27,804 nucleotides of DNA from a virus: positions 1 to 27,804 of IMG/VR virus record IMGVR_UViG_3300025767_000101. The stretch is one strand, 5' to 3'. The position numbers and the translations under genes are program-made. Below are positions 7,397-25,599 of this stretch, in pieces. The notes under the pieces are model-generated. The model was not told the origin of the DNA. It saw only the letters and a list, made by a program, of their open reading frames with translations, and made no database searches. Position 1 is the first letter of the stretch, and every line of letters starts with the position of its first letter.

Positions 7397-7543
7397 GTCG
7401 TAAGATTTTTCGTAGTCAGGCCAGGATCCGTTCTTAACCATTTCGCAGTACATGCGCTGCTCGGCCTGTTCGTCTTGAAAATCTAGGTGACCCGCGATTC
7501 CAAACACGCTGATGAACAACACAAAAATAAGAAAGGCTCTCAT
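7379..7543 (-). CDS. Small secreted or membrane-anchored phage protein (54 aa)
   Basis: A short reading frame easily missed because of its size. Translation begins MRAFLIFVLFISVFGIAGHL, a hydrophobic signal/anchor segment, followed by an acidic stretch and YCEMVKNGSWPDYEKSYDLW, then CKQ and a stop. The 'YC-MV--G-WPDY---Y---C' pattern recurs in small early proteins of many phages, from memory. Its ATG overlaps the stop of the preceding 93-residue gene (ATGA), so it is probably translated by coupling. The two cysteines (residues 33 and 52) could form a disulfide outside the cytoplasm. Function is unknown. The start codon lies inside the loop of a strong hairpin, and the 3' end is antisense to the end of the 686-residue gene. 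Confidence 0.75.
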   Translation of the reverse strand: MRAFLIFVLFISVFGIAGHLDFQDEQAEQRMYCEMVKNGSWPDYEKSYDLWCKQ

Positions 7544-7552
7544 GCGAGAGCC
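7522..7552 (-). terminator. Hairpin plus T-rich tract spanning a stop/start overlap
   Basis: On the minus strand GGCTCTC-GCAT-GAGAGCC forms a perfect seven-pair stem with a four-base loop, followed at once by a T-rich run (TTTCTTATTTTTG). This has the form of an intrinsic terminator. The loop holds the overlapping stop and start codons of the 93- and 54-residue genes, so the structure could reduce both read-through and translation of the second gene. On the plus strand the same hairpin has a T-run only about 16 bases further on, so it is weaker in that direction. Confidence 0.55.
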
Positions 7553-7821
7553 CTGCTAGCTTTGATTTGTTTTTTCAAATGGCGGTTGATCGCCTCGCCA
7601 ATATTCTCTTCAAGGTTCAATCCCATGAAGGCGCGGATGTCAGCGTCACGCGCATCAGCTGTCGCCTGAACAACGGCATCAGAAATGTCGTAAAACTTAC
7701 GCAGATCGCGTACCTGATCGTCCATCGCAGCGCGACCAATCGAGTTGCGAAGAACATTGTCGTCGCCGAGATTAAACTCAGAAGTAGCACCGAAGTTAGA
7801 AATGGTTGTGAAAATACGCAT
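7540..7821 (-). CDS. Small early phage protein of unknown function (93 aa)
   Basis: A 93-residue protein starting MRIFTTISNFGATSEFNLGD and ending in a basic helix (INRHLKKQIKASRALA). I do not recognise it. A GAGGA ribosome-binding site lies about eight bases upstream of the ATG. The gene has its own promoter, which overlaps a palindromic operator-like site, and a small hairpin (TGTGCC/GGCACA, 7842-7858) falls in the leader. It is separated from the end of the primase-helicase gene by 111 bp, so it can be expressed independently of the replication genes. Its stop overlaps the start of the 54-residue gene. The arrangement suggests an accessory early function, but nothing in the sequence names it. 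Confidence 0.75.
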   Translation of the reverse strand: MRIFTTISNFGATSEFNLGDDNVLRNSIGRAAMDDQVRDLRKFYDISDAVVQATADARDADIRAFMGLNLEENIGEAINRHLKKQIKASRALA

Positions 7822-7863
7822 TTTTTTTAGTCCTCATTGTCTGTGCCCCCTTGGCACAATTGA

Positions 7864-7892
7864 AGTATCTCAAATGCGTAACGCTGTTACAA
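7864..7892 (-). promoter_or_regulatory. Sigma-70-like promoter with palindromic operator
   Basis: On the minus strand TTGTAA and GATACT are separated by exactly 17 bp, a good match to -35 and -10 elements, and lie some 40 bp before the 93-residue gene. GTAAC-GCT-GTTAC (7878-7890), a perfect five-base inverted repeat with a three-base gap, covers part of the spacer and the -35 box, so a bound repressor would block polymerase. A further half-site, TTGTTACA, lies just upstream at 7896-7903. Confidence 0.6.
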
Positions 7893-7932
7893 GCATTGTT
7901 ACACATATTTTTTAAATTATTTTCAGTTACTT

Positions 7933-10326
7933 CTATCGTGTAATTGAGACGACATTTGAAGCGAACTCACTAGCCAATCTCACCCTGGGGTAACACACCC
8001 GCCTGGTGTTGCTGTCGCGTACCGGCTGCACCCCGTACTCTTTAGCGCGCAGCTTAAACGATGCCCCGAATTTCCTAAGCGACATAGGACGCATACTTTC
8101 GTCAGCGCACCACCGGCAGTAATCCGAATAGACAGATTGCGCCTCAACCAGGTTGTCCTCACCGCCGTCCCAGGACACATTGCTGTAGATCCACCGACCG
8201 ATGTCGTCGTTGTCCACCATGTAATCCTCGGTCGCTGCAGCCACAACTTTCGGTATCACCAGGCCATTCTCGGCCCACATGGCAGCCCCGTCGATCATCC
8301 AGGCCAGGATGCCTGGCATTTCCTCGGCGAGCTTGTCATCGAGCAGCGGATCCCTGGTCGTTGGCATAAAATCGAACGGCACAATGTGGATGCGTCGCTT
8401 GATCGCGTTGGTCACATTCTTGACCGATGGCGCGTGGTTGCTCGAAATCACCAGGGTAAACTGTGGATCAAAGCTAAAGAAATTGCCGTACAGCAGCCTG
8501 GCTTTGATTGTGTCACCACCAGTCATCAGCTTGATGCGCTGCTCATCCCATCCATCATCGTCGTCAGTTTCATCAGTACAGACGAAGCGCATGCCAACCA
8601 GGCCTGCCAGGTCGTTGGTCTGTTTCTCATGTCGTGACCGGGTAACCGATGATGCCGGTATGGTTGTGGAGTATTCCTGCCCCAAGGCTCTGAGGATCTG
8701 ACGCACAAACACGCCTTTACCGTTACCGCCAGGCCCAAACAAGAACGCAAACATCTGCTCACGACTGGTGCCCCATAGACAGTACCCGGCCAGGTGCTGC
8801 AGGTATGATCGCAGCTCGGTGTCTCCCTGGGTGATCTCGGTCAAGAAGTTATCCCAGACCGGTGTCTCCACTTCCCAGGCAGGAGCAACCGGGGTGATCC
8901 TGGACTGCCATAGCTCTGGCCGATGCTCCAGGCGTTGTGAGTCACGCAGATCGTACACCCCAATCGGTGTATTCAAGTGATGCGCAACCTGGTCGAACTG
9001 CTCAAGCGTACTGTTAAGCGTGCGCAAATTAGCACTGATCTTTAGCACCTGATCAACGGTTCGGGCCTTGCTGAGGTACATGGCCAGGCTCTCAGCTCTG
9101 CTGACAGGCTCGACAGTGCGCAGCGCACGACTAGCTTCCTGGTCCAAAAACCGACGACACAGATCGAACGCCTCACCGTTCTGATCGCGTGACCACCTCA
9201 TGCCGTCCCAAACAAACCACAGCCCGTGACCAGGCACTGACTTCAGCCTGGCTGCATGCTTCCTGGCAAAACGCTGCGCCAGGGCAGACTCGCTGAACAT
9301 TGCGAGCTGCACAGTCTCATCTTTTTCTGGTGGCTGCTCTGGTGCAGGCTCGGCTGAGAAATCCCAAGCCGGGTCGTAAACACCACGACGCTGCGCCTGG
9401 GCGTACAGCCAGGCCTTTCCGATTTCATAGGGCGGGTGCATGCGATCCCAGTCTGATGTGACCATCTCTGGGTTGTTGTCGCCTTGCTCCCACCGGCTGC
9501 ACCAATCGAGAAACAAATCCAGGCCGAGACCGGGGTCTTCTTGGGTTGCTGCTTTAATCGCGTAACCACATTGTATGTACGCCTCTCGATCTGGGTAGTC
9601 ATTCGGCAGCGACTTAACAATCGACGCGAGTTTATCCAGGTCGCGCTCGATCAGATCATCCTGGTCAACGCTGCCTCGATCCTTAGCGTTGCTGCCACTG
9701 ATCGCGATGACCTCATATCCGAACAGAGGCAGCAGCTCGGACAGCTCTTGGAAAAACGCATCAATCTCATCCTGGGTGATGACTGTAAGGCTATTAGAGT
9801 CACCAGGCATGTCCTCGATGCTGTAAGGTTTCTTGGTGATCGGGTGCGTGCCACTGACGATGTACTGCGCACCGTCGCCCAATGCTTCTACCAGGTGGAT
9901 CTCGCCCGTTGTGGTGTCAGCAAAGCGCAACCTGGTCGTGCGAATTTCTGACTCAGCCCGGTACATTACCAGGGCTTTTGGCGGTCTACCGACGCGCACT
10001 GGCCCTGGACCCAAAATCTTGTGAGCCAGGTCAACGATGTGAGGTGCTAGTTCTGGGTCGGTAATATCGACATCGATCCCTGGATACCTGGCTGCCTTCA
10101 GCCCGATGTTCGCACCGTCCACATCCCAGGTCATTACTTCCTGCCTGGACGGGGTGTGCTGCTGCCAGGGGTAACCGGCCCACCGGCCCATCTGATTTTT
10201 TCTGCCTGGTACTTTGCCTCGGCTTTTTGGTGAGATATTGCTGTTGTGTGACAGCTCTGCGTCTACTGGGATGACGCTGACCAGGTCAGTAAATCCCGCA
10301 TCAAATAAATCAATTCCTTTCATCAT
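7933..10326 (-). CDS. Primase-polymerase / SF3 helicase fusion (PrimPol-D5)
   Basis: A 797-residue replication protein with three modules. Residues 1-200 are an archaeo-eukaryotic primase (bifunctional primase/polymerase) with GIDVDITD (83-90), carrying the two metal-binding aspartates, VRVGRPPK (110-117) and SGTHP (158-162). Residues about 225-310 fit a primase C-terminal (PriCT) domain. Residues about 350-480 fit D5_N, followed by an SF3 helicase with Walker A GPGGNGKG (531-538), the acidic CTDETDDDD region after it, TLVISSNHAP, and an arginine-finger region AIKRRIHIVPF. It would melt the origin, unwind and prime phage DNA. It follows the polymerase gene by 3 bp. The first of two adjacent ATGs was chosen. 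All visible motifs are intact. Confidence 0.9.
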   Translation of the reverse strand: MMKGIDLFDAGFTDLVSVIPVDAELSHNSNISPKSRGKVPGRKNQMGRWAGYPWQQHTPSRQEVMTWDVDGANIGLKAARYPGIDVDITDPELAPHIVDLAHKILGPGPVRVGRPPKALVMYRAESEIRTTRLRFADTTTGEIHLVEALGDGAQYIVSGTHPITKKPYSIEDMPGDSNSLTVITQDEIDAFFQELSELLPLFGYEVIAISGSNAKDRGSVDQDDLIERDLDKLASIVKSLPNDYPDREAYIQCGYAIKAATQEDPGLGLDLFLDWCSRWEQGDNNPEMVTSDWDRMHPPYEIGKAWLYAQAQRRGVYDPAWDFSAEPAPEQPPEKDETVQLAMFSESALAQRFARKHAARLKSVPGHGLWFVWDGMRWSRDQNGEAFDLCRRFLDQEASRALRTVEPVSRAESLAMYLSKARTVDQVLKISANLRTLNSTLEQFDQVAHHLNTPIGVYDLRDSQRLEHRPELWQSRITPVAPAWEVETPVWDNFLTEITQGDTELRSYLQHLAGYCLWGTSREQMFAFLFGPGGNGKGVFVRQILRALGQEYSTTIPASSVTRSRHEKQTNDLAGLVGMRFVCTDETDDDDGWDEQRIKLMTGGDTIKARLLYGNFFSFDPQFTLVISSNHAPSVKNVTNAIKRRIHIVPFDFMPTTRDPLLDDKLAEEMPGILAWMIDGAAMWAENGLVIPKVVAAATEDYMVDNDDIGRWIYSNVSWDGGEDNLVEAQSVYSDYCRWCADESMRPMSLRKFGASFKLRAKEYGVQPVRDSNTRRVCYPRVRLASEFASNVVSITR

Positions 10327-10329
10327 GGC

Positions 10330-12255
10330 TCACTTTCTATATCTGTTCCCGCGCCAACCTTCAGCTGCGACAGGACATCCTGCAGCCCACTCTGGTGTCA
10401 CAGCCATCAGCTGCTCGACTTCTTTGAGCTGTCCAAAATCGATAGGCTGCTCGGTAAGGATTTCGTCATGAATGGTCGCCACTACCGGGTAACCGTGATC
10501 CTCAAGCCTGAGCATTGCTTCAACCAGGAGATCCCTGGCCACCGCTTGCACGATGTTTTCGGCCCATCGACCGCCATACATTTGTTGCTTTTCATATTTT
10601 CGGGTCACACTGTTCAGTCCAAAAAACATGAAAGTGTCGCGCATCCCCCAGGGCGTTTCGGTTTCTTCTATGGATGGTCTATGGTAGGTCAGATTCCTAC
10701 CCGACGGCAATGTCACCAACAGCCACGCGCCATCCTTTTGAAACCGAATACGGCCGATTTGAAATACCCGGCCTGGATACATCAATGCATTTTTTGAAGC
10801 GTTTTCCAGGTCATACCAAAACTTTTTAATGTGATTGTTCTCTGTTCGGTACACATCGATAATAACTTTCGCGTCAGCTTCACTCAGCTCGATGCCGATA
10901 CTTGTACAAGTCTGAGCGAATTTCGCCGCGCCCATGCCGTAACCACAGCCCAGGATCGCCATCTTCCCCATCTGTCTCTGATCTTTTGTGACCTCATCGT
11001 AGGTGCATTTGTAGATCTTCTGAGCCATGAGCTTGTACACATCCTGGCCCTGTTTGAACGCAGCAACCAGGTCAGCCTGGTCAGCAATCCAGGCCAATAC
11101 CCTGGCCTCAATTGCAGCAAAGTCAGCAGCGATAAAATCTTTACCGTCAGCAGCGACGATGCAGCTGCGCAGCAGATCAGAGATCACCTGCAGCGGTGGA
11201 CCGAAACACACATCGACCAGGTCAGCATCCCTGGACATCACAGCCGGGATTGCTTTCTCTGGGTTCGACAGCTCTGGTCGGGGTAAGTTTTGAGGCTGCA
11301 CCAGGCGACCGGCAAACCGTCCTGTCCTGGCTGCGCCTGCGTACAGCAGCGCGCCTCGGATGCGTTCGTTCTTACTTAGCGCGTCTCGCATTGCCTGGAG
11401 CTTGGCTGTTGATGTTTTGCCAGTCTCCATGCGCAGCTGCAGGATGCGTCGAGCCAGGGCATCGGTACGCGGATCGTCGATGTATGCTCGGACATTTGCT
11501 TTATCCAGGCTTTGGATCTGCACACCATGTTGACGCAGCCAGGTTACAATCCTGGCCGGATTTGTCAGCGAGGTACAAAACCCGCCGGTCAATTCGAACA
11601 GCTCGACATTCGCCTTGTTGGTGGCGTGCTCGACAACCTCAAGCGCAGCGTCCACCAACCACACATCAATGCCCAGGCCTCTGTCGTTCGCTACCTGGTC
11701 GAGCAGGAAAACCTTGCGCTCGATGTCGGACCAGGGTCGCAGCATCGACGCTATGGTGCGCTCAACCTCGACATCCTGGACGCAATACTCAACCAAACGC
11801 TGCACACGATCCGGTTCATCCCACCAGCTGTGCTTGCCGTTGACTGTTTTTCTAGGCCGGGCCATGCGCATCATCAAACGCTGCCCGTCCATATCCTTCT
11901 CCAAGCCCATGTTCAAAGCCAGGGCTGCTTGCTCCAAGGAGCTCGGCAGCGACATCAGTCTGGCCTGGGCAGCAGTACACCACCACTCATCCACACTGAA
12001 TTCGGGGAACCCGTATTTGGGCACCATAATATTTTCCCAGATCACGCGCTCAAACTGACTATTCCAGGCGCGCTTGGGCAGTGCCCAGTCAATGTCTGGG
12101 ATCTTATCCCCAGGCAGCCAGGTCTCAATTGGTCCATCGCCTACAGCATAGGCCATACACCAAACATCCGTATCCCGGTGCTCCGCATAGGCATAGGCTC
12201 CGGCTCGACGCAGATCACATGATGACCGCGTCTCGAAATCGATTGATATATACAT
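10330..12255 (-). CDS. Family-A DNA polymerase (Pol I type, 3'-5' exonuclease plus polymerase)
   Basis: A 641-residue polymerase. The exonuclease domain has DFET (6-9), AWNSQFE (63-69) and YCVQD (157-161). The polymerase domain has motif A DFAAIEARVLAW (D378), the O-helix segment RQMGKMAILGCGYG (427-440) and motif C IHDEIL (D597). There is no 5' nuclease domain, as is usual for phage enzymes of this class. It synthesises phage DNA with the PrimPol-helicase encoded just downstream. No Shine-Dalgarno sequence is visible because the 30 bp upstream is occupied by a terminator hairpin and its T-tract, so expression may depend on read-through or on a leaderless-type start. The ATG at 12255 gives a complete exonuclease domain. 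Confidence 0.93.
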   Translation of the reverse strand: MYISIDFETRSSCDLRRAGAYAYAEHRDTDVWCMAYAVGDGPIETWLPGDKIPDIDWALPKRAWNSQFERVIWENIMVPKYGFPEFSVDEWWCTAAQARLMSLPSSLEQAALALNMGLEKDMDGQRLMMRMARPRKTVNGKHSWWDEPDRVQRLVEYCVQDVEVERTIASMLRPWSDIERKVFLLDQVANDRGLGIDVWLVDAALEVVEHATNKANVELFELTGGFCTSLTNPARIVTWLRQHGVQIQSLDKANVRAYIDDPRTDALARRILQLRMETGKTSTAKLQAMRDALSKNERIRGALLYAGAARTGRFAGRLVQPQNLPRPELSNPEKAIPAVMSRDADLVDVCFGPPLQVISDLLRSCIVAADGKDFIAADFAAIEARVLAWIADQADLVAAFKQGQDVYKLMAQKIYKCTYDEVTKDQRQMGKMAILGCGYGMGAAKFAQTCTSIGIELSEADAKVIIDVYRTENNHIKKFWYDLENASKNALMYPGRVFQIGRIRFQKDGAWLLVTLPSGRNLTYHRPSIEETETPWGMRDTFMFFGLNSVTRKYEKQQMYGGRWAENIVQAVARDLLVEAMLRLEDHGYPVVATIHDEILTEQPIDFGQLKEVEQLMAVTPEWAAGCPVAAEGWRGNRYRK

Positions 12256-12286: not shown

Positions 12287-12853
12287 TCAGTTCAGCAGAT
12301 CGTCCAGATCTCCCGATGTTCCGTCCATGTCAGCAGCAGCTGACTCCAATGCGTCAAACTCAGAAGTGGCCGGTTTGCGACCGTCAATCCTTTGACCGTC
12401 TGCGAGTTTTTGGAGGTTGTTCAGCCCAAAAGCCACGCCTTTATTGCCGTTAGCATCGTAAGCATATGGTCTAAGAGAAGCCCGCACCCTAGCCCCAGGA
12501 TAAAGCTCATCAGGATCGGAAATCGTTCTTGGCTTGCCTGATGCATCAGCGTAACGATCAACCACACCAGGCGCAGCCTTGCTCTTAACGCGAATGAAAG
12601 TAGTGCCACTTCCATAGTTTTCTTCACCGTCTTTAAACGGCATGCGCGCTTGGCCCTTAGCAACCAAGTCTTTAAATTTGCCACCGAATCTCTCCTCACC
12701 TGCTTTCTGAGCAGCCTCGACCAACTCATTGAGGTCAGAGTCGCTTTCGAAAACTAGGGTGCAACTGTACTCCAATGTGCCCTGCATATTTGGTTTGGGC
12801 TCAAAGAGCTGTGGGTATGAAAGGATCGCCTCTGGCGTTATCAGATTACTCAT
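12287..12853 (-). CDS. Single-stranded DNA-binding protein, DUF2815 / Enc34-like
   Basis: A 188-residue protein with the DUF2815 layout: an N-terminal ITPEAILSYPQLFEPKP segment, a beta-rich OB-fold core (YSCTLVFES, TTFIRVKSK, GARVRASLRPYAYDANGNKG, VAFGLNNLQKL), and a disordered acidic tail ending SGDLDDLLN. The family is known from the phage Enc34 SSB, which coats single strands during replication; the acidic tail is the usual contact for partner proteins. A GAGGAA ribosome-binding site precedes the ATG. The gene sits between the DUF2800-type nuclease and the polymerase, the pairing typical of this replication module, and is followed directly by a terminator. Confidence 0.85.
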   Translation of the reverse strand: MSNLITPEAILSYPQLFEPKPNMQGTLEYSCTLVFESDSDLNELVEAAQKAGEERFGGKFKDLVAKGQARMPFKDGEENYGSGTTFIRVKSKAAPGVVDRYADASGKPRTISDPDELYPGARVRASLRPYAYDANGNKGVAFGLNNLQKLADGQRIDGRKPATSEFDALESAAADMDGTSGDLDDLLN

Positions 12854-15623: not shown

Positions 15624-16090
15624 ACATCACCCCCGCATGAGGCTATGAGAACGGCTTCAGCTCTGCCGTCGTCTTTTACCCTGGCAAATTGTATCGAGTG
15701 TTGAGGATACAGCTCTGCTGCGCGCTGCCGACTGCCGTCTTTACCGCCGGTCACGCGCATGCGTCGCTTCCATTCCTGGGGCGTTATAAATGTCACCGGC
15801 AGCTCCATGCCTGCGCACACACCCTCAATTATCCCGGCAGCTCGACCGAACGAAAACATGCTCGCAACACCTTGGCCAGGCATCGCATTGACCTGCTCGA
15901 TCAAAACCTTGTCCGGCTGCCACATCTTGATGATCTGAGCCAAAACCTGAGCGTGCACTTTCTTACGGTGCGACCGCCCGACCTGAAGCTCCATCGTCGG
16001 CATGTCGTGCAGCTCTATCAACTGCATCGAATCACCATCGATCATTGCGATGGCCCCGTTAATGCCAGGATCAACTCCTAAGATTTTCAT
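15620..16090 (-). CDS. RuvC-like Holliday junction resolvase
   Basis: A 156-residue RNase-H-fold nuclease. GVDPG carries the first catalytic aspartate (D7), VLIEQV the glutamate (E65), and KDDGRAEAVLIA the C-terminal acidic pair (D140/D141). MPGQGVASMFSFGRAAGIIEG is the typical RuvC loop-helix between them. Length matches the family. It would cut four-way junctions and branched replication intermediates before packaging. It starts in an ATGA overlap with the HTH gene and its stop overlaps the probable CTG start of the helicase, so these three genes are coupled. Confidence 0.9.
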   Translation of the reverse strand: MKILGVDPGINGAIAMIDGDSMQLIELHDMPTMELQVGRSHRKKVHAQVLAQIIKMWQPDKVLIEQVNAMPGQGVASMFSFGRAAGIIEGVCAGMELPVTFITPQEWKRRMRVTGGKDGSRQRAAELYPQHSIQFARVKDDGRAEAVLIASCGGDV

Positions 16091-16371
16091 AATTTGAGCC
16101 CTAATTTCTTGGCGATCAACTCGCGCTCTACGGCTTTTAAACTCATCCTCAGCCTGAGCAGCTGCTCACAACTATCCCAGACCGAGTGCAATGAGCGCAG
16201 CTGCTGCTGCTGCTGACGTTTGCCCGAGATAATTCTCCAAATAGTAGTACGGCTGACACCAGAATGATCCTCGATCTCTCGGAAAGTAATCTTCTCCCGT
16301 CGGCATTCCTGTAGCTTTTCGACGACTAACTGGGAAAGATCAGGAAATAATTTTTCGTTATCGCTACCCAA
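16087..16371 (-). CDS. Small HTH DNA-binding protein, first gene of the replication operon
   Basis: A 94-residue protein with a helix-turn-helix at residues 28-51 (ITFREIEDHSGVSRTTIWRI), where 'I-D-SGVSRTTIWRIISG' is a clear recognition-helix pattern. It is followed by five glutamines and a helical C-terminus (SLHSVWDSCEQLLRLRMSLK). It starts at TTG (16371), with AGGTG about 11 bases upstream; no ATG is available in frame before the HTH. Being first in the leftward operon and next to the divergent control region, it may regulate that operon and the rightward genes. A repressor or activator role is inferred. The glutamines are encoded by a CAG/CTG triplet run, giving possible length variation. 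Confidence 0.75.
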   Translation of the reverse strand: MGSDNEKLFPDLSQLVVEKLQECRREKITFREIEDHSGVSRTTIWRIISGKRQQQQQLRSLHSVWDSCEQLLRLRMSLKAVERELIAKKLGLKL

Positions 16372-16612
16372 AACTACGTTTCACCTATGCAACATTACAA
16401 TTCGGGGCATGATCTCGCAATCATATTTCGAAAACAAGGGTTGTACGGTAATTTATGACTAAAGGAGTCAAAACGGGAAAATAAGGGATTGACAGGGTCA
16501 AGCTAGGGACTGTTTAAACGATATTGGTGCATCTAGGCTGTAACGACAATTTACGGGACAGGAGCTTCTCAGGCGGGGTTTCTAAAAATGTTAGAAAAAA
16601 AAGGAGAATGCG
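16372..16612. promoter_or_regulatory. Divergent control region between leftward and rightward early genes
   Basis: This 241-bp gap separates the HTH gene (left) from the excisionase-like gene (right). Rightward, TTGACA (16489-16494) and TTTAAA (16513-16518) are 18 bp apart and make a plausible promoter. Around it, AGGG recurs at 16484, 16494 and 16505, about one helical turn apart. TGACT-AAAGG-AGTCA (16456-16470) is an inverted repeat and GTTTAAAC (16512-16519) is a palindrome at the -10 box. I found no convincing -35/-10 pair for the leftward operon, although one must start here. Confidence 0.5.
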
Positions 16613-16840
16613 ATGGACCCAACCGCAACTTTTTTGACACCCCACCAGGTTGTCAAACGGTACGGCAACTGGATCAGTGTTAAAACCCTGGCCAATTGGA
16701 GAACGAAACAATCCGGCCCTGCTTATGTAAAAATTGGTGGTCGCATTTTCTACAAGCTATGCGCGTTGACGAAGTGGGAGCGGGAGCGAGAGGTCAAGTT
16801 TGACCAGGTGACAAAAAACATTGAGAATCCTGTCATCTGA
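16613..16840 (+). CDS. Excisionase-like winged-helix DNA-binding protein
   Basis: A 75-residue protein. LTPHQVVKRYGNWISVKTLA-NWR is the first helix-turn-helix of the MerR/excisionase type, and GPAYVKIGGRIFYKLCALTKW is the wing and following strand typical of helix-turn-helix 17 (AlpA/Xis-like) proteins. A GGAG site precedes the ATG. Such proteins bend DNA at attachment sites or act as small transcription regulators. With the integrase and attP about 1 kb downstream in the same orientation, a recombination directionality factor is a reasonable inference, but a regulatory role is equally compatible. Confidence 0.75.
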   Translation: MDPTATFLTPHQVVKRYGNWISVKTLANWRTKQSGPAYVKIGGRIFYKLCALTKWEREREVKFDQVTKNIENPVI

Positions 16841-16857
16841 ACAAAAAGGATTTTCAA

Positions 16858-17184
16858 ATGACAGATATGGTCCACAACCCGGCTCACTACACGGGCGGTC
16901 ACATTCAATGTATCGACGCAATAGAAAGCTGCCTAAGCCCCACCGAATATCTCGGCTATCTACGGGGCAACATTATGAAATACACCTGGCGTTTCCGTCA
17001 GAAAGTCACGCATCCCACTGCTGTCGAGGGCAAACAAGACCTTGAGAAAGCACAGTGGTACATGGTGCGCTTGATGGAGTTCAATATTAAATACCAGGCC
17101 TGGATTGAAAAGCACAACCTGCAGGCCGAGATTGATCAACTGAACGCGATGGCTGCTATCTGGGAGCAGCAAGACGAAGGATAG
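16858..17184 (+). CDS. DUF3310 family protein (T7 gp1.7-like nucleotide kinase annotation)
   Basis: A 108-residue protein with the DUF3310 signature: NPAHYTGGHIQCIDAIES at the start, then YLGYLRGNIMKYTWRFRQK and LEKAQWYMVRLME. The family is widespread in phages, and members are often annotated as nucleotide kinases because of T7 gp1.7; I treat the kinase activity as unproven here. An AAGGA site lies about eight bases before the ATG. The C-terminal 35 residues are an extra amphipathic helix. It is the second gene of the short rightward early group and is probably involved in nucleotide metabolism during replication. Confidence 0.85.
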   Translation: MTDMVHNPAHYTGGHIQCIDAIESCLSPTEYLGYLRGNIMKYTWRFRQKVTHPTAVEGKQDLEKAQWYMVRLMEFNIKYQAWIEKHNLQAEIDQLNAMAAIWEQQDEG

Positions 17185-17238
17185 TCAAGACTGCACCTGC
17201 GCGAAAGGAATTGAGATAATCACCAGGAGCGGTGAACT

Positions 17239-17436
17239 ATGGACGACATTGATAGAGCGCAGGCACAAGAGGAATGGTTTAGGTCGCAGGCCTTACAAAA
17301 AGCCAGGCGGGGACGAACCGACATCTACCCTACAGGACTCTGTTGGAACTGTGAGGACGAAGTCGATCACCCTCGCCTTTTCTGCGACAACGACTGTGAA
17401 AGAGACCACGCAAGAAGAAAACTAAATGAAAATTAA
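17239..17436 (+). CDS. Small four-cysteine zinc-finger protein
   Basis: A 65-residue protein with CWNC (35-38) and CDNDC (49-53), four cysteines spaced as a compact zinc-binding module, preceded by an acidic/basic helix (DRAQAQEEWFRSQALQKARR). The pattern resembles the C-terminal zinc finger of DksA/TraR-type proteins or small phage zinc fingers; the coiled-coil tip acids of DksA are not evident. An AGGAG site lies nine bases before the ATG. Regulatory or nucleic-acid binding is likely but the target cannot be read. It overlaps the next gene by 11 bases. Confidence 0.75.
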   Translation: MDDIDRAQAQEEWFRSQALQKARRGRTDIYPTGLCWNCEDEVDHPRLFCDNDCERDHARRKLNEN

Positions 17437-17611
17437 GATGTACGATCCAGAGGATGCTCTGGACGAAGCTATTTTCTCCGCTAAAAAAGAAGGCATACCC
17501 TACGCGATCATCCAGGTCGCAGATTTTTATTGGGTCACGCCAGAACATAAAGCAAGAAGCGCACCGACCGTCGTGGTCGGGAGGAGACCTGATGGTTGGC
17601 GGGGCCGATGA
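17426..17611 (+). CDS. Small hypothetical protein before terminator (61 aa)
   Basis: A 61-residue protein, MYDPEDALDEAIFSAKKEGI and onward, with a plausible alpha/beta start and a basic end (VVVGRRPDGWRGR). There are two in-frame ATGs, at 17426 and 17438. The first overlaps the zinc-finger gene by 11 bases; the second lies just after its stop and within better protein-like sequence. I do not recognise it. It is the last clear gene before the intrinsic terminator of this group. Confidence 0.6.
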   Translation: MKIKMYDPEDALDEAIFSAKKEGIPYAIIQVADFYWVTPEHKARSAPTVVVGRRPDGWRGR

Positions 17612-17686
17612 CTTGGAAAAGTTTTTGAGGGAGCGTACTATCTAATCTCCCTCATTGGAGTATTAGGGCGACACCCCTGCCCTTTG

Positions 17687-17717
17687 GACCTGGCAGCCCC
17701 TGCCGGGTCTTTTTTTT
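17687..17717 (+). terminator. Strong rho-independent terminator
   Basis: GACCTGGCA pairs with TGCCGGGTC (nine pairs, one G-T) around a GCCCC loop, followed by eight T residues (17710-17717). It ends the rightward early group and insulates the attachment site from transcription. Confidence 0.92.
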
Positions 17718-17732
17718 GATTCGCTGCTGATC

Positions 17733-17763
17733 TGTTTCCTATGTGTTTCCTGGCCTGTTTTCC
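17733..17763 (+). repeat. attP arm repeats, left cluster (TGTTTCCT)
   Basis: TGTTTCCT occurs at 17733-17740 and 17744-17751, 11 bp apart, with a variant TGTTTTCC at 17756-17763. The same octamer is repeated with the same spacing on the other side of the tRNA-derived core. Helically phased direct repeats flanking a core are typical of arm-type integrase binding sites. Confidence 0.6.
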
Positions 17764-17798
17764 AGGGGAACCAAAACTGCGCTAAGTCATTGAAAAGA

Positions 17799-17843
17799 TG
17801 GTCGGAGTGGAGAGATTCGAACTCCCGGCCCTCTGGTCCCAAA
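17799..17843 (-). other. attP: attP core: 3' half of a tRNA-Pro(UGG) gene
   Basis: Read on the minus strand, these 45 bases are a tRNA 3' half: anticodon loop TTTGGGA (anticodon UGG, G37), anticodon-stem 3' strand CCAGA, variable loop, a T-stem/loop containing TTCGAAT, acceptor strand CACTCCG, discriminator A and CCA. The matching 5' half is absent; the next bases cannot form the D-arm or acceptor 5' strand, and the would-be anticodon-stem 5' strand does not pair. A tRNA 3' half beside a tyrosine integrase gene is the standard form of attP for phages that integrate into tRNA genes, restoring the tRNA on insertion. It is not a functional tRNA by itself. The exact crossover point cannot be read. 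Confidence 0.88.
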
Positions 17844-17885
17844 CCGCGTATCTATAGATCCCAAATATTCCCGACACATCCCAAA
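17837..17885 (+). repeat. Triple TCCCAAA repeat and palindrome at the core edge
   Basis: TCCCAAA occurs at 17837, 17859 and 17879, about two helical turns apart. The first copy is the tRNA anticodon loop itself. ATCTATAGAT (17850-17859), a perfect palindrome, lies between the first two. They may be core-type integrase sites or spare copies of the anticodon-loop target. Confidence 0.45.
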
Positions 17886-17956
17886 GCACCTGGAATCATT
17901 CATTTTTTACTTGCCAGGGAATCACACCTGGTCGTAGTAAATAACTATTGTTCCCG

Positions 17957-17981
17957 TGTTTCTGTTTCCTGGATGTTTCCT
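17957..17981 (+). repeat. attP arm repeats, right cluster (TGTTTCCT)
   Basis: TGTTTCCT at 17963-17970 and 17974-17981, again 11 bp apart, preceded by a partial TGTTTC at 17957. The second copy abuts the integrase start, so integrase bound here could repress its own gene. Confidence 0.6.
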
Positions 17982-19070
17982 ATGCTCACACAATCACAGA
18001 TCAAAAAATTGCTGCAGTCTCGCCCTGGTAAAGACACTTGGATGCTCGATAGTCCAGGCTTGTATCTACGCAGCCAGGGTGATGCCTGGTTTTGGTATAT
18101 AAGAACCCGTGCACACGGTAAGCAGCACACTGTCAAAGTCGGTCCAGGCTCGATGGACGCTGCAGCTGCACGCACTGAGGCTATGAGGATCATGCTCGAT
18201 CTACGCCAGGGCGTGGTGCAGCAGAAGTTCACGATGGCTGATCTGATGCAGCTGCATGAGCAGCAGACCCAGGATGTCAAACCGTCAACGCACGCGAACT
18301 ATCGCGGTCTACGACGAAAGATACTGGAACACATTTCGCCTCGCGCCCAGATCAATACAGTCTCGCCTGAGCAGCTGCGCAAGCTGCACATCAAACTGGG
18401 TGGCAGCTACTCGGCCAACCGTGCCCTGGAAGTGCTGAAAAAATCCTGGCGTTTAGCTCGCGAATATAAGTGGACCGAGTCCGACCCGACAGAATTTGTT
18501 CGCGCTGCGCGAGAGCAGCCTCGCCAACATGTGCTCACCCAGGCTGAGATCACCAGGCTGCTCGATGCCTGTGAGGCTTGGCAAGGTGCAGCCAGGGCGT
18601 TCCCTCACCTGGTTCGGCTTCTATTGTTTACCGGGCTGCGTAAGACCGAATGGTCGCTGCGTCCATGGGCTGACCTGGATGATGATGTCATTCATCTACC
18701 AGACTCAAAAAGCGGTGAGCGGTGGCATGCGCTGCCTGGTCCTGCGCTTGAGCAGCTCAAAGCCTTAAAGGCTATGAGGCTGTCAGATACCTGGATCATC
18801 CCGAACATTGAGGGGGATGGACCGCTGACCTGGACGAAACGGCACTGGAACCGGCTGCTGCGCGACGCAGCTCTGGATGATGGCGTGCGCATGCATGATC
18901 TGAGACACACAGCAGGCAGCTATGCTCATAGCCGTTTAGGGTTGTCGCAGCGTGAGATCGCCGACATGTTAGGACATCGTGACATGGCCTCATCTGCCAG
19001 GTACATCGGTGGTGTTGACTCATCGAGGCGATCAATCGCTCGACGGCTCGATGGATTGTTTGATTTGTAA
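17982..19070 (+). CDS. int: Tyrosine-recombinase integrase
   Basis: A 362-residue integrase from the ATG at 17982 (GGA eight bases upstream); the ATG at 17973 adds three residues. The N-terminal part has the arm-binding DUF4102-like pattern (AWFWYIRTRAHGKQHTVKVG), followed by a helical core-binding domain. The catalytic domain shows TGLRKTEW (Arg), PDSKSGE (Lys), MHDLRHTAG (His-x-x-Arg), GHRDMASSARY (second His and the tyrosine). The open frame extends back to 17790, but the extra residues read WSEWRDSNSRPSGPKP, the well-known false peptide obtained by translating antisense tRNA, so they are not protein. Integrates the phage at tRNA-Pro(UGG). All catalytic residues are present. Confidence 0.95.
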   Translation: MLTQSQIKKLLQSRPGKDTWMLDSPGLYLRSQGDAWFWYIRTRAHGKQHTVKVGPGSMDAAAARTEAMRIMLDLRQGVVQQKFTMADLMQLHEQQTQDVKPSTHANYRGLRRKILEHISPRAQINTVSPEQLRKLHIKLGGSYSANRALEVLKKSWRLAREYKWTESDPTEFVRAAREQPRQHVLTQAEITRLLDACEAWQGAARAFPHLVRLLLFTGLRKTEWSLRPWADLDDDVIHLPDSKSGERWHALPGPALEQLKALKAMRLSDTWIIPNIEGDGPLTWTKRHWNRLLRDAALDDGVRMHDLRHTAGSYAHSRLGLSQREIADMLGHRDMASSARYIGGVDSSRRSIARRLDGLFDL

Positions 19071-19079
19071 CGCTGTCAC
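19067..19079. promoter_or_regulatory. Operator-like site GTAAC-N3-GTCAC at integrase stop
   Basis: GTAAC-GCT-GTCAC differs by one base from the perfect palindrome in the promoter at 7878-7890. It overlaps the integrase stop codon. The core GCTGTCACGC recurs at 20591-20600. Confidence 0.35.
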
Positions 19080-19083
19080 GCCC

Positions 19084-19371
19084 GAAACAATCCCGAAACA
19101 AACTACAGGCAATTGTTTCGCTGTAAGTTATTGATTTGATTGATGTTCGAAACAAACGAAACAAACGAAACAAAATTTGAGAACAAAACGGTATAAATAA
19201 ATATGTGTTTCATTTGTTGCATATATGAAACGTTTTTTAGCTATAGGAGATAACAAATAGAGTTTTTTGTTTCGTTGTTTCGGAAGGGTAGGAATTGAGG
19301 GCTAAAAGGCTATGAGGATCAAGCACTTAGCTTTCCGAAACAAACTGAGGCCAAAATCGAGTTTGTTTCGG
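19084..19371. repeat. Iteron-like array of GAAACA/TGTTTC in a gene-free region
   Basis: The 384-bp gap between the integrase and the oxygenase holds no gene. GAAACA or its complement TGTTTC occurs at 19084, 19095, 19114, 19149, 19158, 19167, 19206, 19268, 19276, 19337 and 19364. At 19148-19174 three copies of the nine-base unit CGAAACAAA stand in tandem. GTTTCAT and ATGAAAC (19207-19213, 19225-19231) form an inverted repeat, as do the 12-base arms at 19335-19346 and 19360-19371. The stretch 19180-19270 is strongly AT-rich. Tandem iterons beside an AT-rich region is the form of a replication origin; extra integrase arm sites or a partition-type site are alternatives, since the hexamer is shared with the attP arm repeats. 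Confidence 0.7.
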
Positions 19372-19454
19372 AACACCTGGGACGCATCGAGGTAGTGGTT
19401 TTTGGTTTATCCGCTGTACAATATCGAGACAGTAAACGGGAAGAACAACAACCA

Positions 19455-20021
19455 ATGAACGACAGATCGATCTACCAGGTCGAGAATGCATTTACCCAGG
19501 ATTTATGCGAGAGGATCATCGCCCAGGCTGACACAGTCAGGCTGCTAGATGATGGACCGGTCCAACATAACCGAGAGCTCAATCGCCTGGAAGATTGCAT
19601 CAGTTTATTCGACAACCCAAACATGACTGACCTGGTCGAACCAATTGAGCAGCAGCTGCAGCCACATTGGGAAGCGTACCAGGAGCTGTTCCCGGTTCTT
19701 AAACTGGCTCAGTTTGATCACAAGCTGCTGAAGTACAACCACGCACCGAGATATGGTGGTATTCAGTTCTGGCACTGTGAGCAGCGCAGCGGAGCCGAGC
19801 ATGTAGCGTCCAGGGCAGCAGTGTGGATGGTGTATCTCAATGATGTTGAGCTCGGTGGTGAGACGGAGTTCCTTTATCAGCAGCTGCGCATCCAGGCCAA
19901 AGCAGGTCGCCTGGTAATATTCCCCGCCACATACACGCACACACATCGCAGCGCGCCAGTCTGGGATGAACGCAAAGATGTAATAACTGGCGTATTTAAT
20001 TTTGAAGTATTTAGTGGATGA
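19455..20021 (+). CDS. 2-oxoglutarate/Fe(II)-dependent oxygenase (prolyl-4-hydroxylase-like)
   Basis: A 188-residue protein with the double-stranded beta-helix pattern of this superfamily: LLKYNHAPRYGG, then FWHCEQ (H107 and E109, an H-x-E metal pair), VYLNDVELGGETEF, and GRLVIFPATYTHTHR with the distal histidine (162 or 164) and a basic residue after it for 2-oxoglutarate. It would oxidise a substrate using oxygen and 2-oxoglutarate; the substrate cannot be read, and protein side chains or nucleobases are both possible. Such genes are common in aquatic phages. The ATG at 19455 has GGGAAG 11 bases upstream; the longer frame to 19395 lacks a site. It precedes the small terminase gene by 19 bp. 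Confidence 0.8.
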   Translation: MNDRSIYQVENAFTQDLCERIIAQADTVRLLDDGPVQHNRELNRLEDCISLFDNPNMTDLVEPIEQQLQPHWEAYQELFPVLKLAQFDHKLLKYNHAPRYGGIQFWHCEQRSGAEHVASRAAVWMVYLNDVELGGETEFLYQQLRIQAKAGRLVIFPATYTHTHRSAPVWDERKDVITGVFNFEVFSG

Positions 20022-20040
20022 CAATCGTGGAGTGATAGCG

Positions 20041-20589
20041 ATGGCAGGTGCACCAGTAAAAAGAGAAAGGCATGAACGGTGGGACAAGATGATCGCACAG
20101 CCTGCGTTCTGGGATTCAGTGTTTGAATTGATGAGCGAAGGACAGTCGTTGACATCTGTCTGTCAAAAGAAACAGATCGGCTATTCGTATGTGATGCGCA
20201 GGCTGCACAACGATGAAGAGCTCAAGCTCAGGTATGCAGCAGCACGCCAGGCTAGAGCACAGAGCCATGTCGAGCAGATCGAGCAGCACTTGGATGATGT
20301 GATAGATGGTGCGATGGATCCACATGTTGGTCGAGTGGTCATCGATGGTCGCAAGTGGTTGGCCAGTCGAATGGATCCGCAACTGTGGGGTGACAAGCAG
20401 CAGCACAGTGTCCAGGTGCTTGATGTGACCAGGATGCACTTGGATGCGCTGAAGATCATCAACCAGGGAACAACGATCACCATTGAGAATACTGACACGG
20501 CAGACCGTGTCGAAGAGCGGTCCATACCTGCAAGCGCGACCGCTACTTTGCCGACCGAGGAGAAAACCCGTTCAAAATCAAGCACTTAG
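20041..20589 (+). CDS. terS: Terminase small subunit (Sf6-like)
   Basis: A 182-residue protein with an N-terminal DNA-binding helix-turn-helix (FWDSVFELMSEGQSLTSVCQ, then YSYVMRRLHNDEELKLRYAAA), a central oligomerisation helix (ARAQSHVEQIEQHLDDVIDG), and the family motif WLASRMDPQLWGDK (106-119) before a disordered tail. This order is that of the Sf6/P22-type small terminase, which recognises the packaging site and forms a ring that feeds DNA to the large subunit. The ATG at 20041 has GGAG about nine bases upstream; an upstream ATG at 20002 would overlap the oxygenase gene and lacks a site. The large subunit gene follows after the serine recombinase. Confidence 0.82.
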   Translation: MAGAPVKRERHERWDKMIAQPAFWDSVFELMSEGQSLTSVCQKKQIGYSYVMRRLHNDEELKLRYAAARQARAQSHVEQIEQHLDDVIDGAMDPHVGRVVIDGRKWLASRMDPQLWGDKQQHSVQVLDVTRMHLDALKIINQGTTITIENTDTADRVEERSIPASATATLPTEEKTRSKSST

Positions 20590-20604
20590 GGCTGTCACGC
20601 TATG

Positions 20605-20617
20605 TTAACAGCGTTAC
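20605..20617. promoter_or_regulatory. Operator-like site TTAAC-AGC-GTTAC
   Basis: A 13-base near-palindrome one mismatch from GTAAC-N3-GTTAC, placed just after the small terminase stop. GCTGTCACGC, shared with the site after the integrase, lies immediately upstream at 20591-20600. Confidence 0.35.
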
Positions 20618-20641
20618 ACCGACCCTTTGAGACCTCGATCT

Positions 20642-20718
20642 GACCCTACCCCCCGGCCTGGCACCCCCGCCGGGGGCGGTTGCATGAGCTAGGGTCTCAC
20701 AGAAAAAATTTATTTTTC
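20642..20718. other. Nested palindromes between small terminase and recombinase
   Basis: An outer inverted repeat GACCCTA (20642-20648) and TAGGGTC (20690-20696) encloses a very stable G/C hairpin, CCCCCGGC (20650-20657) with GCCGGGGG (20669-20676). It is followed by an A/T palindrome, GAAAAA-ATTTA-TTTTTC (20702-20718). There is no T-run directly after the GC stem, so a normal intrinsic terminator is unlikely. Its place beside the terminase genes suggests a packaging start site (pac/cos) or a crossover site for the adjacent serine recombinase. Confidence 0.5.
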
Positions 20719-20746
20719 ATCCAGAAGTAGACACACTGCTACAATC

Positions 20747-20770
20747 AGCGTTACTATTACGGCGTTACAC
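20747..20770 (+). promoter_or_regulatory. Repeated half-sites AGCGTTAC / GGCGTTACAC before serine recombinase
   Basis: AGCGTTAC at 20747-20754 and GCGTTACAC at 20762-20770 repeat the right half of the GTAAC-N3-GTTAC element 15 bp apart, just before the AGGAG site of the recombinase gene. They may be repressor half-sites or part of a recombinase binding site. Confidence 0.35.
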
Positions 20771-20784
20771 AGGAGAACGCAAAA

Positions 20785-21462
20785 ATGGCAACTTACGGTT
20801 ATATCAGGGTTTCAACAGTAGAACAGATCGACGGCAGCTCCCTGGCTGAACAGACCCGCCGGATCGAAGGCCTGGCCATGATGGAAGGCCATGAACTCGC
20901 CCAGGTTTTCTCTGATGGCGGTGTCTCAGGCTCTGTGCCCCTGGCAGAACGCCCAGAAGGGTATAAACTCATGGCAGCCTTAAAGCCTGGTGACCTGGTC
21001 ATCGTTGCGAAAATGGATCGTATGTTCCGTGACGCAGCTGATGCCCTGGCAGTCGCCAAGCGTTTTAAAGACCAGGGTGTTGATCTGGTCCTGGCTGACA
21101 TGGGACCACAGCCGATTACAGGCAACGGTGCCGGTAAACTGTTTTTTGGTGTCCTGGCCATGGTCGCTGAGTTTGAGCGCGAGCGCATCGCCGAGCGTTT
21201 GAATGAAGGCCGTAAGGCTAAAAAGGCATCAGGGGGTTTTACTGGGGGATCCAGGCCTTTTGGTTATCGTGTTATTGGAGAGGGTAAGGAAGCGCACCTG
21301 GCACCAATAGCCCGTGAGCAGGAAGCAATAAAGCTCATGGTTGAGCTGCAAAAAGAAGGGAATTCGCTGCGCAAGATCGCGCACCAGGTCAAGGAGACCT
21401 ACTGGTTCGATATGTCAGCGATGAAAGTAAAGCGCGTTTTGGACCGCGAGGATGCAATGTGA
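20785..21462 (+). CDS. Serine recombinase (resolvase/invertase family)
   Basis: A 225-residue protein. YIRVSTVEQ holds the catalytic serine (S10) and R8; DLVIVAKMDRMFRD carries the conserved arginines; GKLFFGVLAMVAEFERERIAERL is the long dimer helix; the rest (GGSRPFGYRVI, NSLRKIAHQVKE) looks like a short linker and an HTH for DNA binding. Length fits the resolvase/invertase group rather than large serine integrases. An AGGAG site precedes the ATG. The stop overlaps the GTG start of the large terminase (GTGA), so the two are co-translated. A separate tyrosine integrase is present, so this enzyme probably does something other than lysogenic integration, such as multimer resolution or inversion. 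Confidence 0.92.
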   Translation: MATYGYIRVSTVEQIDGSSLAEQTRRIEGLAMMEGHELAQVFSDGGVSGSVPLAERPEGYKLMAALKPGDLVIVAKMDRMFRDAADALAVAKRFKDQGVDLVLADMGPQPITGNGAGKLFFGVLAMVAEFERERIAERLNEGRKAKKASGGFTGGSRPFGYRVIGEGKEAHLAPIAREQEAIKLMVELQKEGNSLRKIAHQVKETYWFDMSAMKVKRVLDREDAM

Positions 21463-24316: not shown

Positions 24317-25599
24317 GCAAGCGCGCAACTCTTAAAGAGCTGATCGAAATATTTCTTGGCCAGGGCACAGCGGAGCGTATGGCGACCGCGCAAAAGCGTG
24401 CAGCGTTGCCAGTATCGGAAGGTGGTCTTGGATTACCCTCGACCAACACGCCAGGTGATCGAGCTGCGCTGATGTACCCGGCTACTACTTTCCGAGGCAT
24501 GAAATCTATCGATGACGCGGAGTACCCGTCATTGGTTACTGCGCATCCGAACCCCAAAGATGAAAACACGATGGTGTTTCACACACCACATCGATACCTG
24601 GCAAACACTTACAACAACAATGTCGAGCAGCTGCGCTTTGATCCCAGGGGCCACCTGGAAGCAGATTACGACGGGCGGTTTTATACTGGCACCAGGTTCA
24701 ATCCTGATGAACTAGACGAAATCCCAGAGCCAATTTTTGATGAAATGGAAAACAGGGATATGGCTATCGGCGATTTTGCCAGTGACGCTCTTGATGTGCG
24801 TTCGCCGTATCCAAACGACGCAGCCGTCGAGGTGCCGTTAGGCACGACAGATCGCCTGGCTGCTTACGCAGCTAATCCCTCAGAATCTTATTCTGGCCCG
24901 ATCAGCGGTGTTCGCATGGACAATGTTGTTGATGTCGGAGCGTCGCGCAGCAAAGCCGGAACGCGAGCCCTGGAGGCCGAGGTTATGGCCAGGGGGCTGC
25001 CGGTCACTGAAGAGAACAAAACGGCAGTGCGGTGGAGCCCGGCGACGGTGTATGCTTCTAAAGGCAACACGCTGCGCAGCCAGGACGCTGCGTATGATCC
25101 GTTCCTAAAAGAATGGCACAATTTAAAAGCAGGCCTGGTTGGCCCGGCGGTTGCGACTGGTGGGTTGTTATCGACTACAAATGACGCTGAGGCACAGACT
25201 GACGGTTTTGATTTTAAGGCTGCGTCAAAGCAGGCCAAAGAAATGAACGACTATCGAGCGATGGTCGCGGAGCTTGGACGCGCTGCCGAAGGTGAGCAGC
25301 TGCTCGCTGCAATGTTGAAAAACTCAGACAGCCTGTCCCCCGAAATGAAAAAGCGGTTGAAAGACATCGGTCCAAAGATGAGCCCTCAAGCGTCAAAATT
25401 AGACTACGCCAAAGGTTTCGGGAGAGAATATGCAAAGACCTTAAAGGATTTGGCGACAGATCCCATTACCTGGTTGGACATAGCTACGGGCTTACACCCG
25501 GCCAAATGGTTGGTGAAGGGTGCCGTGGCTGCAAACTCAGGTTTGGCAACCCATGAGCTCATGGGCCTTTTAGACGATAGACGGGATGGGCTATTTTGA
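24313..25599 (+). CDS. Large phage protein with possible ADP-ribosyltransferase-like domain
   Basis: A 428-residue protein. Residues 56-102 (PATTFRGMKSIDDAEY and MVFHTPHRYLANTY) resemble the 'FRG ... F-T----A--Y' pattern of phage ADP-ribosyltransferase-like domains, and 199-230 continue as an alpha/beta region (VRMDNVVDVGASRSKAGTRA). A Gly-rich hydrophobic segment ending in acids (GPAVATGGLLSTTNDAEAQ, 277-295) then leads to a helical C-terminal third. The same kind of hydrophobic-acid segment starts the preceding protein. The catalytic glutamate of the transferase family cannot be placed with confidence. It overlaps both neighbours (ATGA and TGATG), placing it in the packaging operon as possible virion cargo. 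Confidence 0.55.
   Translation: MSKRATLKELIEIFLGQGTAERMATAQKRAALPVSEGGLGLPSTNTPGDRAALMYPATTFRGMKSIDDAEYPSLVTAHPNPKDENTMVFHTPHRYLANTYNNNVEQLRFDPRGHLEADYDGRFYTGTRFNPDELDEIPEPIFDEMENRDMAIGDFASDALDVRSPYPNDAAVEVPLGTTDRLAAYAANPSESYSGPISGVRMDNVVDVGASRSKAGTRALEAEVMARGLPVTEENKTAVRWSPATVYASKGNTLRSQDAAYDPFLKEWHNLKAGLVGPAVATGGLLSTTNDAEAQTDGFDFKAASKQAKEMNDYRAMVAELGRAAEGEQLLAAMLKNSDSLSPEMKKRLKDIGPKMSPQASKLDYAKGFGREYAKTLKDLATDPITWLDIATGLHPAKWLVKGAVAANSGLATHELMGLLDDRRDGLF

Follow-up and report, generated by a model that had tools for sequence, protein, structure and literature searches.

The replication origins of phage-inducible chromosomal islands (PICIs) are described as always containing two sets of iterons flanking an AT-rich region (PMC6092414). 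In PICIs of the Staphylococcus aureus pathogenicity island (SaPI) type, the iterons are short, the two sets are oppositely oriented around the AT-rich DNA, the element encodes a P4-family primase-helicase, and the origin lies directly 3′ of the rep gene. P4 itself, which has a primase-helicase of the same family, possesses two separate cis regions, one of which adjoins the primase gene: the annotated ori (ori1) and crr carry 8-bp type 1 repeats in both orientations with 9–11-bp spacing. Here we describe a similar array of short repeats in a linear virus record of 27,804 bp (IMG/VR record IMGVR_UViG_3300025767_000101; this whole stretch is hereafter called the “window”). The array is probably the replication origin of the phage, of the bipartite iteron type of PICIs and P4. 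The phage encodes a terminase, a portal protein, PolA, PrimPol, a single-stranded DNA-binding protein (SSB), an exonuclease, an SNF2 helicase, RuvC, a tyrosine integrase and a serine recombinase.

Architecture of the repeat array

The array occupies a 384-bp gap (19071–19454), between the end of the integrase gene (int) at position 19070 and the start of a 2-oxoglutarate/Fe(II) (2OG-Fe(II)) oxygenase gene at position 19455. A first-pass annotation, made from the letters of the DNA, had counted 11 GAAACA/TGTTTC hexamers here, and both the number and the location (19084–19371) are correct, with the hexamers themselves at 19084–19369; about 0.16 are expected by chance in 288 bp (Poisson P(≥11) ~5e-17). 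The actual repeat unit is longer—CGAAACAA(A)—and 10 of the 11 hexamers extend to CGAAACAA. These ten sites lie at 19083, 19094, 19148, 19157, 19166 and 19336 on the plus strand and at 19113, 19267, 19275 and 19363 on the minus strand, in the strand order ++-+++ / --+-. The tandem spacing is 9 bp for three units, 8 bp for two, and 11 bp for a further two; the first group corresponds to the three nine-base units noticed earlier, which are exact copies of CGAAACAAA at 19148–19174. In a word-cluster scan, the array is the strongest short-word cluster of the window (~1e-20, as compared to ~1e-9 for the runner-up), and the same scan recovers ori and crr as the top two clusters of P4. The P4 word, GGTGAACA, has no match in the window.

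The AT-rich DNA reported beside the repeats is likewise real: according to nearest-neighbour energies, no other stretch of the window is as unstable as the 88-bp segment between the inner iteron sets. The inner sets flank this segment on both sides, which is the arrangement of two sets around AT-rich DNA that characterizes a PICI-type origin. A small inverted repeat, GTTTCAT/ATGAAAC, is located inside the AT-rich core (19207–19231). Among the outer sites, inverted pairs of 27 and 35 bp are present, and the right-hand pair is contained in a perfect 14-bp inverted repeat (19333–19346/19360–19373).

The ten sites are strictly conserved in L002, a 91%-identical relative, where 0 of their 80 bases are changed, as compared to 38 of 304 elsewhere in the gap. 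The arms of the 14-bp hairpin are also identical, while 4 of the 13 loop bases are changed. Because the sites and the hairpin arms remain unchanged while the rest of the gap and the loop have diverged, the ten CGAAACAA sites appear to be under selection. Searches of viral contigs for the exact 24-base tandem pattern returned only the window phage, L002 and unrelated matches, and a search for the inverted-pair pattern added three unrelated chance loci. The TerL relatives of the phage (L010–L088) belong to another lineage, in which neither integrase nor array occurs.

A larger gene-free gap than that of the array exists, contrary to the earlier claim, since 536 bp without a clear gene are found at the 3′ end of PrimPol (7397–7932). 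This is the place where related phages keep their array, and, after the AT-rich core of the array, its DNA at 7858–7945 is the least stable in the window. No iterons or array of the origin kind were found in this stretch.

The putative initiator and the layout in other phages

The window encodes a P4-type primase, as a PICI-type origin requires. PrimPol, a protein of 797 residues, matches TIGR01613 (“phage/plasmid primase, P4 family”) with an E-value of 2.6e-75, and also matches the solved primase structure 7ola, the SaPI5 primase-helicase. Its C-terminal 158 residues (7936–8409) are predicted to form an RFX-like winged helix. The model built with 26 relatives reached a predicted local distance difference test score (pLDDT) of 84, while AlphaFold gave no usable model (pLDDT 34) when no alignment was supplied. 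The model matches RFX winged-helix domains (1dp7, 8zjr), the African swine fever virus PrimPol, and Orc1/Cdc6 on origin DNA, with modest E-values of 0.001–0.02. We infer that this domain binds CGAAACAA, with PrimPol as the cognate initiator of the array.

Initiation could then proceed as follows. The winged-helix domain would bind the iterons, and the PrimPol helicase ring would assemble at the array and melt the AT-rich core. The primase part of PrimPol would make the primers, from which the phage PolA and SSB would extend the forks.

In order to look for the layout independently of the repeat word, we used a motif-blind detector, which requires a tandem 7-mer pair (spacing 7–13) and, 30–160 bp further on, the reverse complement of the 7-mer, again as a tandem pair. 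The detector found one match each in the window and in the complete phages BPP-1, phi105, CL2, AcaML1 and R9Y1, and none in 2.3 Mb of shuffled sequence or in 735 kb of TerL-relative loci. In the latter five phages, the match lies beside the P4-family primase gene, either directly or with one small gene between, and none of the five arrays is annotated as an origin in these records. The detector was also run on 80 further P4-family primase loci; it matched in 14, and in 13 of these its match is placed 57–270 bp beyond the primase match. With 6-mers, matches were found in 22 of 74 regions 3′ of P4-family primases, while the control windows taken from these loci gave 2 of 1192.

BPP-1 has similar replication genes, and its array consists of two tandem pairs of 9-bp units, oppositely oriented on the two sides of AT-rich DNA, with the unit AAACGAGGC in place of the window's AAACGAAAC. 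In contrast to the window, the BPP-1 array has only four copies, adjoins the primase gene, and shows the opposite polarity. By eye, the iteron words of several phages read roughly TTGnnnCG: TTGTAACG in R9Y1, TTGCCTCG in BPP-1, and TTGGGGACG, with one base more, in the relative L203. The window word, read as TTGTTTCG, resembles them likewise, but on the opposite strand.

Conserved position and competing roles

How is the array placed in closer relatives, defined here as those sharing full-length PrimPol and PolA? G008 carries an array of another word, with AAGGGTTGAAGGGT on its left side and ATCCTTCAATCCTTC on its right, between the p17239 homologue and TerS, and no DNA of the G008 genome is as unstable as the AT-rich core of this array. 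In L203–L205, TTGGGGACGG words form an array located 3′ of PrimPol and DUF3310, with TerS on the other side in L203 and L204. The order in the window—DUF3310 and p17239, attP and int, the array, and then the oxygenase and TerS—represents the same neighbourhood. The search of relatives for the same tandem unit in the same gap, suggested as a check, finds the exact unit in L002; G008 and L203–L205 use other words. A constant position with a changing word is what would be expected if an origin co-evolves with its initiator.

The same relatives bear on whether the array instead serves the neighbouring integrase, as arm-type, accessory or excisionase (Xis) sites used together with the phage attachment site (attP). 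The array abuts int, GAAACA is indeed common to the array and the attP arms, as had been noted, and one array pair has the 11-bp spacing of the arm pairs. The extended words differ, however: the arm word is YAGGAAACA in 4 of 5 copies (17733–17979), and a C precedes GAAACA in 10 of 11 array copies but in 0 of 5 arm copies. Moreover, the attP core is already flanked by two pairs of arm repeats, and the array is separated from int in relatives: the G008 array, in the homologous gap, lies 11 kb from a related int, and the 13 kb of L203 include an array but no int. P4 offers a precedent, since its origin repeats also lie near attP and are distinct from the separate attP arm repeats. The extended integrase site that had been named as the rival view is therefore very improbable. 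A search of bacterial genomes with the integrase found no relative, and no exact tRNA-Pro attB was found there either.

A role as an operator or promoter, in which a phage regulator on the repeats switches the late operon (oxygenase, terS, recombinase, terL) starting ~80 bp downstream, is somewhat less improbable but still unlikely. The operon follows the array directly, AT-rich DNA suits promoters, TATAAAT occurs at ~19191, and the G008 array is likewise upstream of terS. In contrast, the L203 array lies between convergent genes and cannot drive either of them, and in phi105, CL2 and AcaML1 the matching layout comes after the primase gene, at its 3′ end. The distance from int in G008 and the convergent genes in L203 argue against the integrase and promoter readings, respectively. 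The array may have a late-promoter role in addition to that of an origin; no sigma-70-like site was found in the gap.

The least probable role, marginally below that of an integrase site, is that of a packaging (cos/pac) or recombination (res) site for TerS or the downstream serine recombinase. Both genes lie within 1.7 kb downstream and accompany the array in G008 and L203, and inverted pairs are available, as described above. Resolvase half-site geometry does not fit tandem 8–9-bp units or odd-length pairs, and the layout in phi105, CL2 and AcaML1 comes after the primase gene, far from terS. We also read the gap before the recombinase gene and rejected the array as its res site, because the spacing does not fit. 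The small recombinase gene itself is found between terS and terL in the window (20785–21462) and in several relatives (L089:966–1634; G008 (L217) ~36545–37198; L203:9040–9693), at 39–45% identity and with or without a tyrosine integrase.

Other types of origin were also considered. No DnaA box (TTATCCACA, up to one mismatch) was found near the array. Iteron plasmid and lambda-type origins resemble the array in having repeats beside an AT-rich unwinding element, but they use longer direct repeats of ~17–22 bp, bound by RepA or O proteins, and none of these were found in the window. The GC skew, suggested as a check, has its minimum near 16.3 kb, which coincides with divergent gene strands and is uninformative on the origin.

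The candidate best supported by these comparisons is therefore an iteron origin opened by PrimPol-SF3, as first proposed: it has the layout of PICIs and P4, the detector ties this layout to P4-family primases, and PrimPol combines membership of that family with a winged helix. Several observations weigh against it. A distance of 8.8 kb separates the array, which is beyond int, from PrimPol, whereas PICI origins are placed immediately 3′ of the rep gene. When the words are read as TTGnnnCG, the inner sets face away from the AT-rich core, while in the other phages they face towards it. No array was found in G005, G001, G006 or L206, several of which are fragments, despite their related PrimPols. 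The survey loci include many near-duplicates, so formal p-values overstate the case, and the sensitivity of the detector is low, as it misses P4 itself and two streptococcal PICIs/satellite phages.

As an origin of this type, that of the window is novel in its occurrence in a phage that encodes a terminase and a portal of its own, its detachment from the primase gene, its own word, and its outer palindrome; the outward polarity of its inner sets also differs from PICIs. The association of the layout with P4-family primases in complete phages, in which it lies beside the primase gene in the five named above and is detached in the window phage, is the more interesting part. We lean, with some reserve, towards the view that phages whose P4-family primase-helicase has a C-terminal RFX-like winged helix generally use the bipartite “PICI” origin, which would then not be special to satellites, that the word of this origin follows the recognition domain, and that in the window lineage the origin became detached from the primase gene, into the gap before terS. 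If so, the sequence would be enough to locate the origins of many phages with P4-family primases, and satellites would no longer be set apart by the layout. How the winged-helix domain of such initiators reads iterons could also be tested directly on the layout. A further candidate for a detached origin is L113:30900–31255 (MW202496), where about nine CTGTTACG words in both orientations surround AT-rich DNA, 10 kb from a VapE-type gene.

Feature coordinates and additional repeats

Table 1. Features of the window and bipartite arrays of other phages
Feature	Position	Strand	Remarks
PrimPol-SF3, P4-family primase-helicase	7933–10326	-	proposed initiator; TIGR01613 match, model and fold matches
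PolA	10330–12255	-	proposed fork protein
Gp2.5-like SSB	12287–12853	-	proposed fork protein
DUF3310 protein	16858–17184	+	synteny marker, between PrimPol and array in L203 and G008
Small gene p17239	17239–17436	+	synteny marker, between PrimPol and array in L203 and G008
attP	17731–17981		tRNA-Pro 3′-half core (~17799–17845) between two pairs of YAGGAAACA arm-like repeats (17731–17751, 17961–17981); outside the origin
Tyrosine integrase with arm-binding domain	17982–19070	+	neighbour of the array, rival binder
Outer left sites	19083–19120		CGAAACAA at 19083 (+), 19094 (+), 19113 (-); last two form an inverted pair; unchanged in L002
Inner left iteron set	19148–19175	+	three tandem 9-bp CGAAACAAA; bipartite detector match 19148–19282
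AT-rich core	19172–19259		proposed DNA unwinding element; 24% GC
Inner right iteron set	19267–19282	-	two tandem CGAAACAA, opposite orientation
Outer right sites	19333–19373		19336 (+) and 19363 (-) within perfect 14-bp inverted repeat TTCCGAAACAAACT
2OG-Fe(II) oxygenase, terminase small subunit, serine recombinase	19455–21462	+	start of late-type operon, after the array
BPP-1 array	L111:26607–26710		beside primase gene
phi105 array	L117:33902–34015		beside primase gene
CL2 array	L118:32057–32227		beside primase gene
AcaML1 array	L119:13713–13806		beside primase gene
R9Y1 array	L120:28880–29015		beside primase gene

No RNA family of Rfam matched in 16000–20800. The TCGAGAA repeats near the PrimPol 3′ end of G007 lie in GC-rich DNA and were left uncounted. 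In G009 (L218–L220), eight CATTGCA words occur within 155 bp beyond the PrimPol 3′ end (25040–25194), and twelve AGGACGG words, all on one strand, within 277 bp (35734–36010). Just outside the G008 array (L216, 774–802), three tandem 10-bp units of the TTGACTTTCC type recall the separate 10-bp type 2 repeats of P4. Finally, a 16–18-base word around GGCTATGAGGAT has three copies inside int (18176, 18764 and 18922 (-), one of them inverted) and one in the gap (19302); the copies at 18178 and 19307 agree at 17 of 18 bases.
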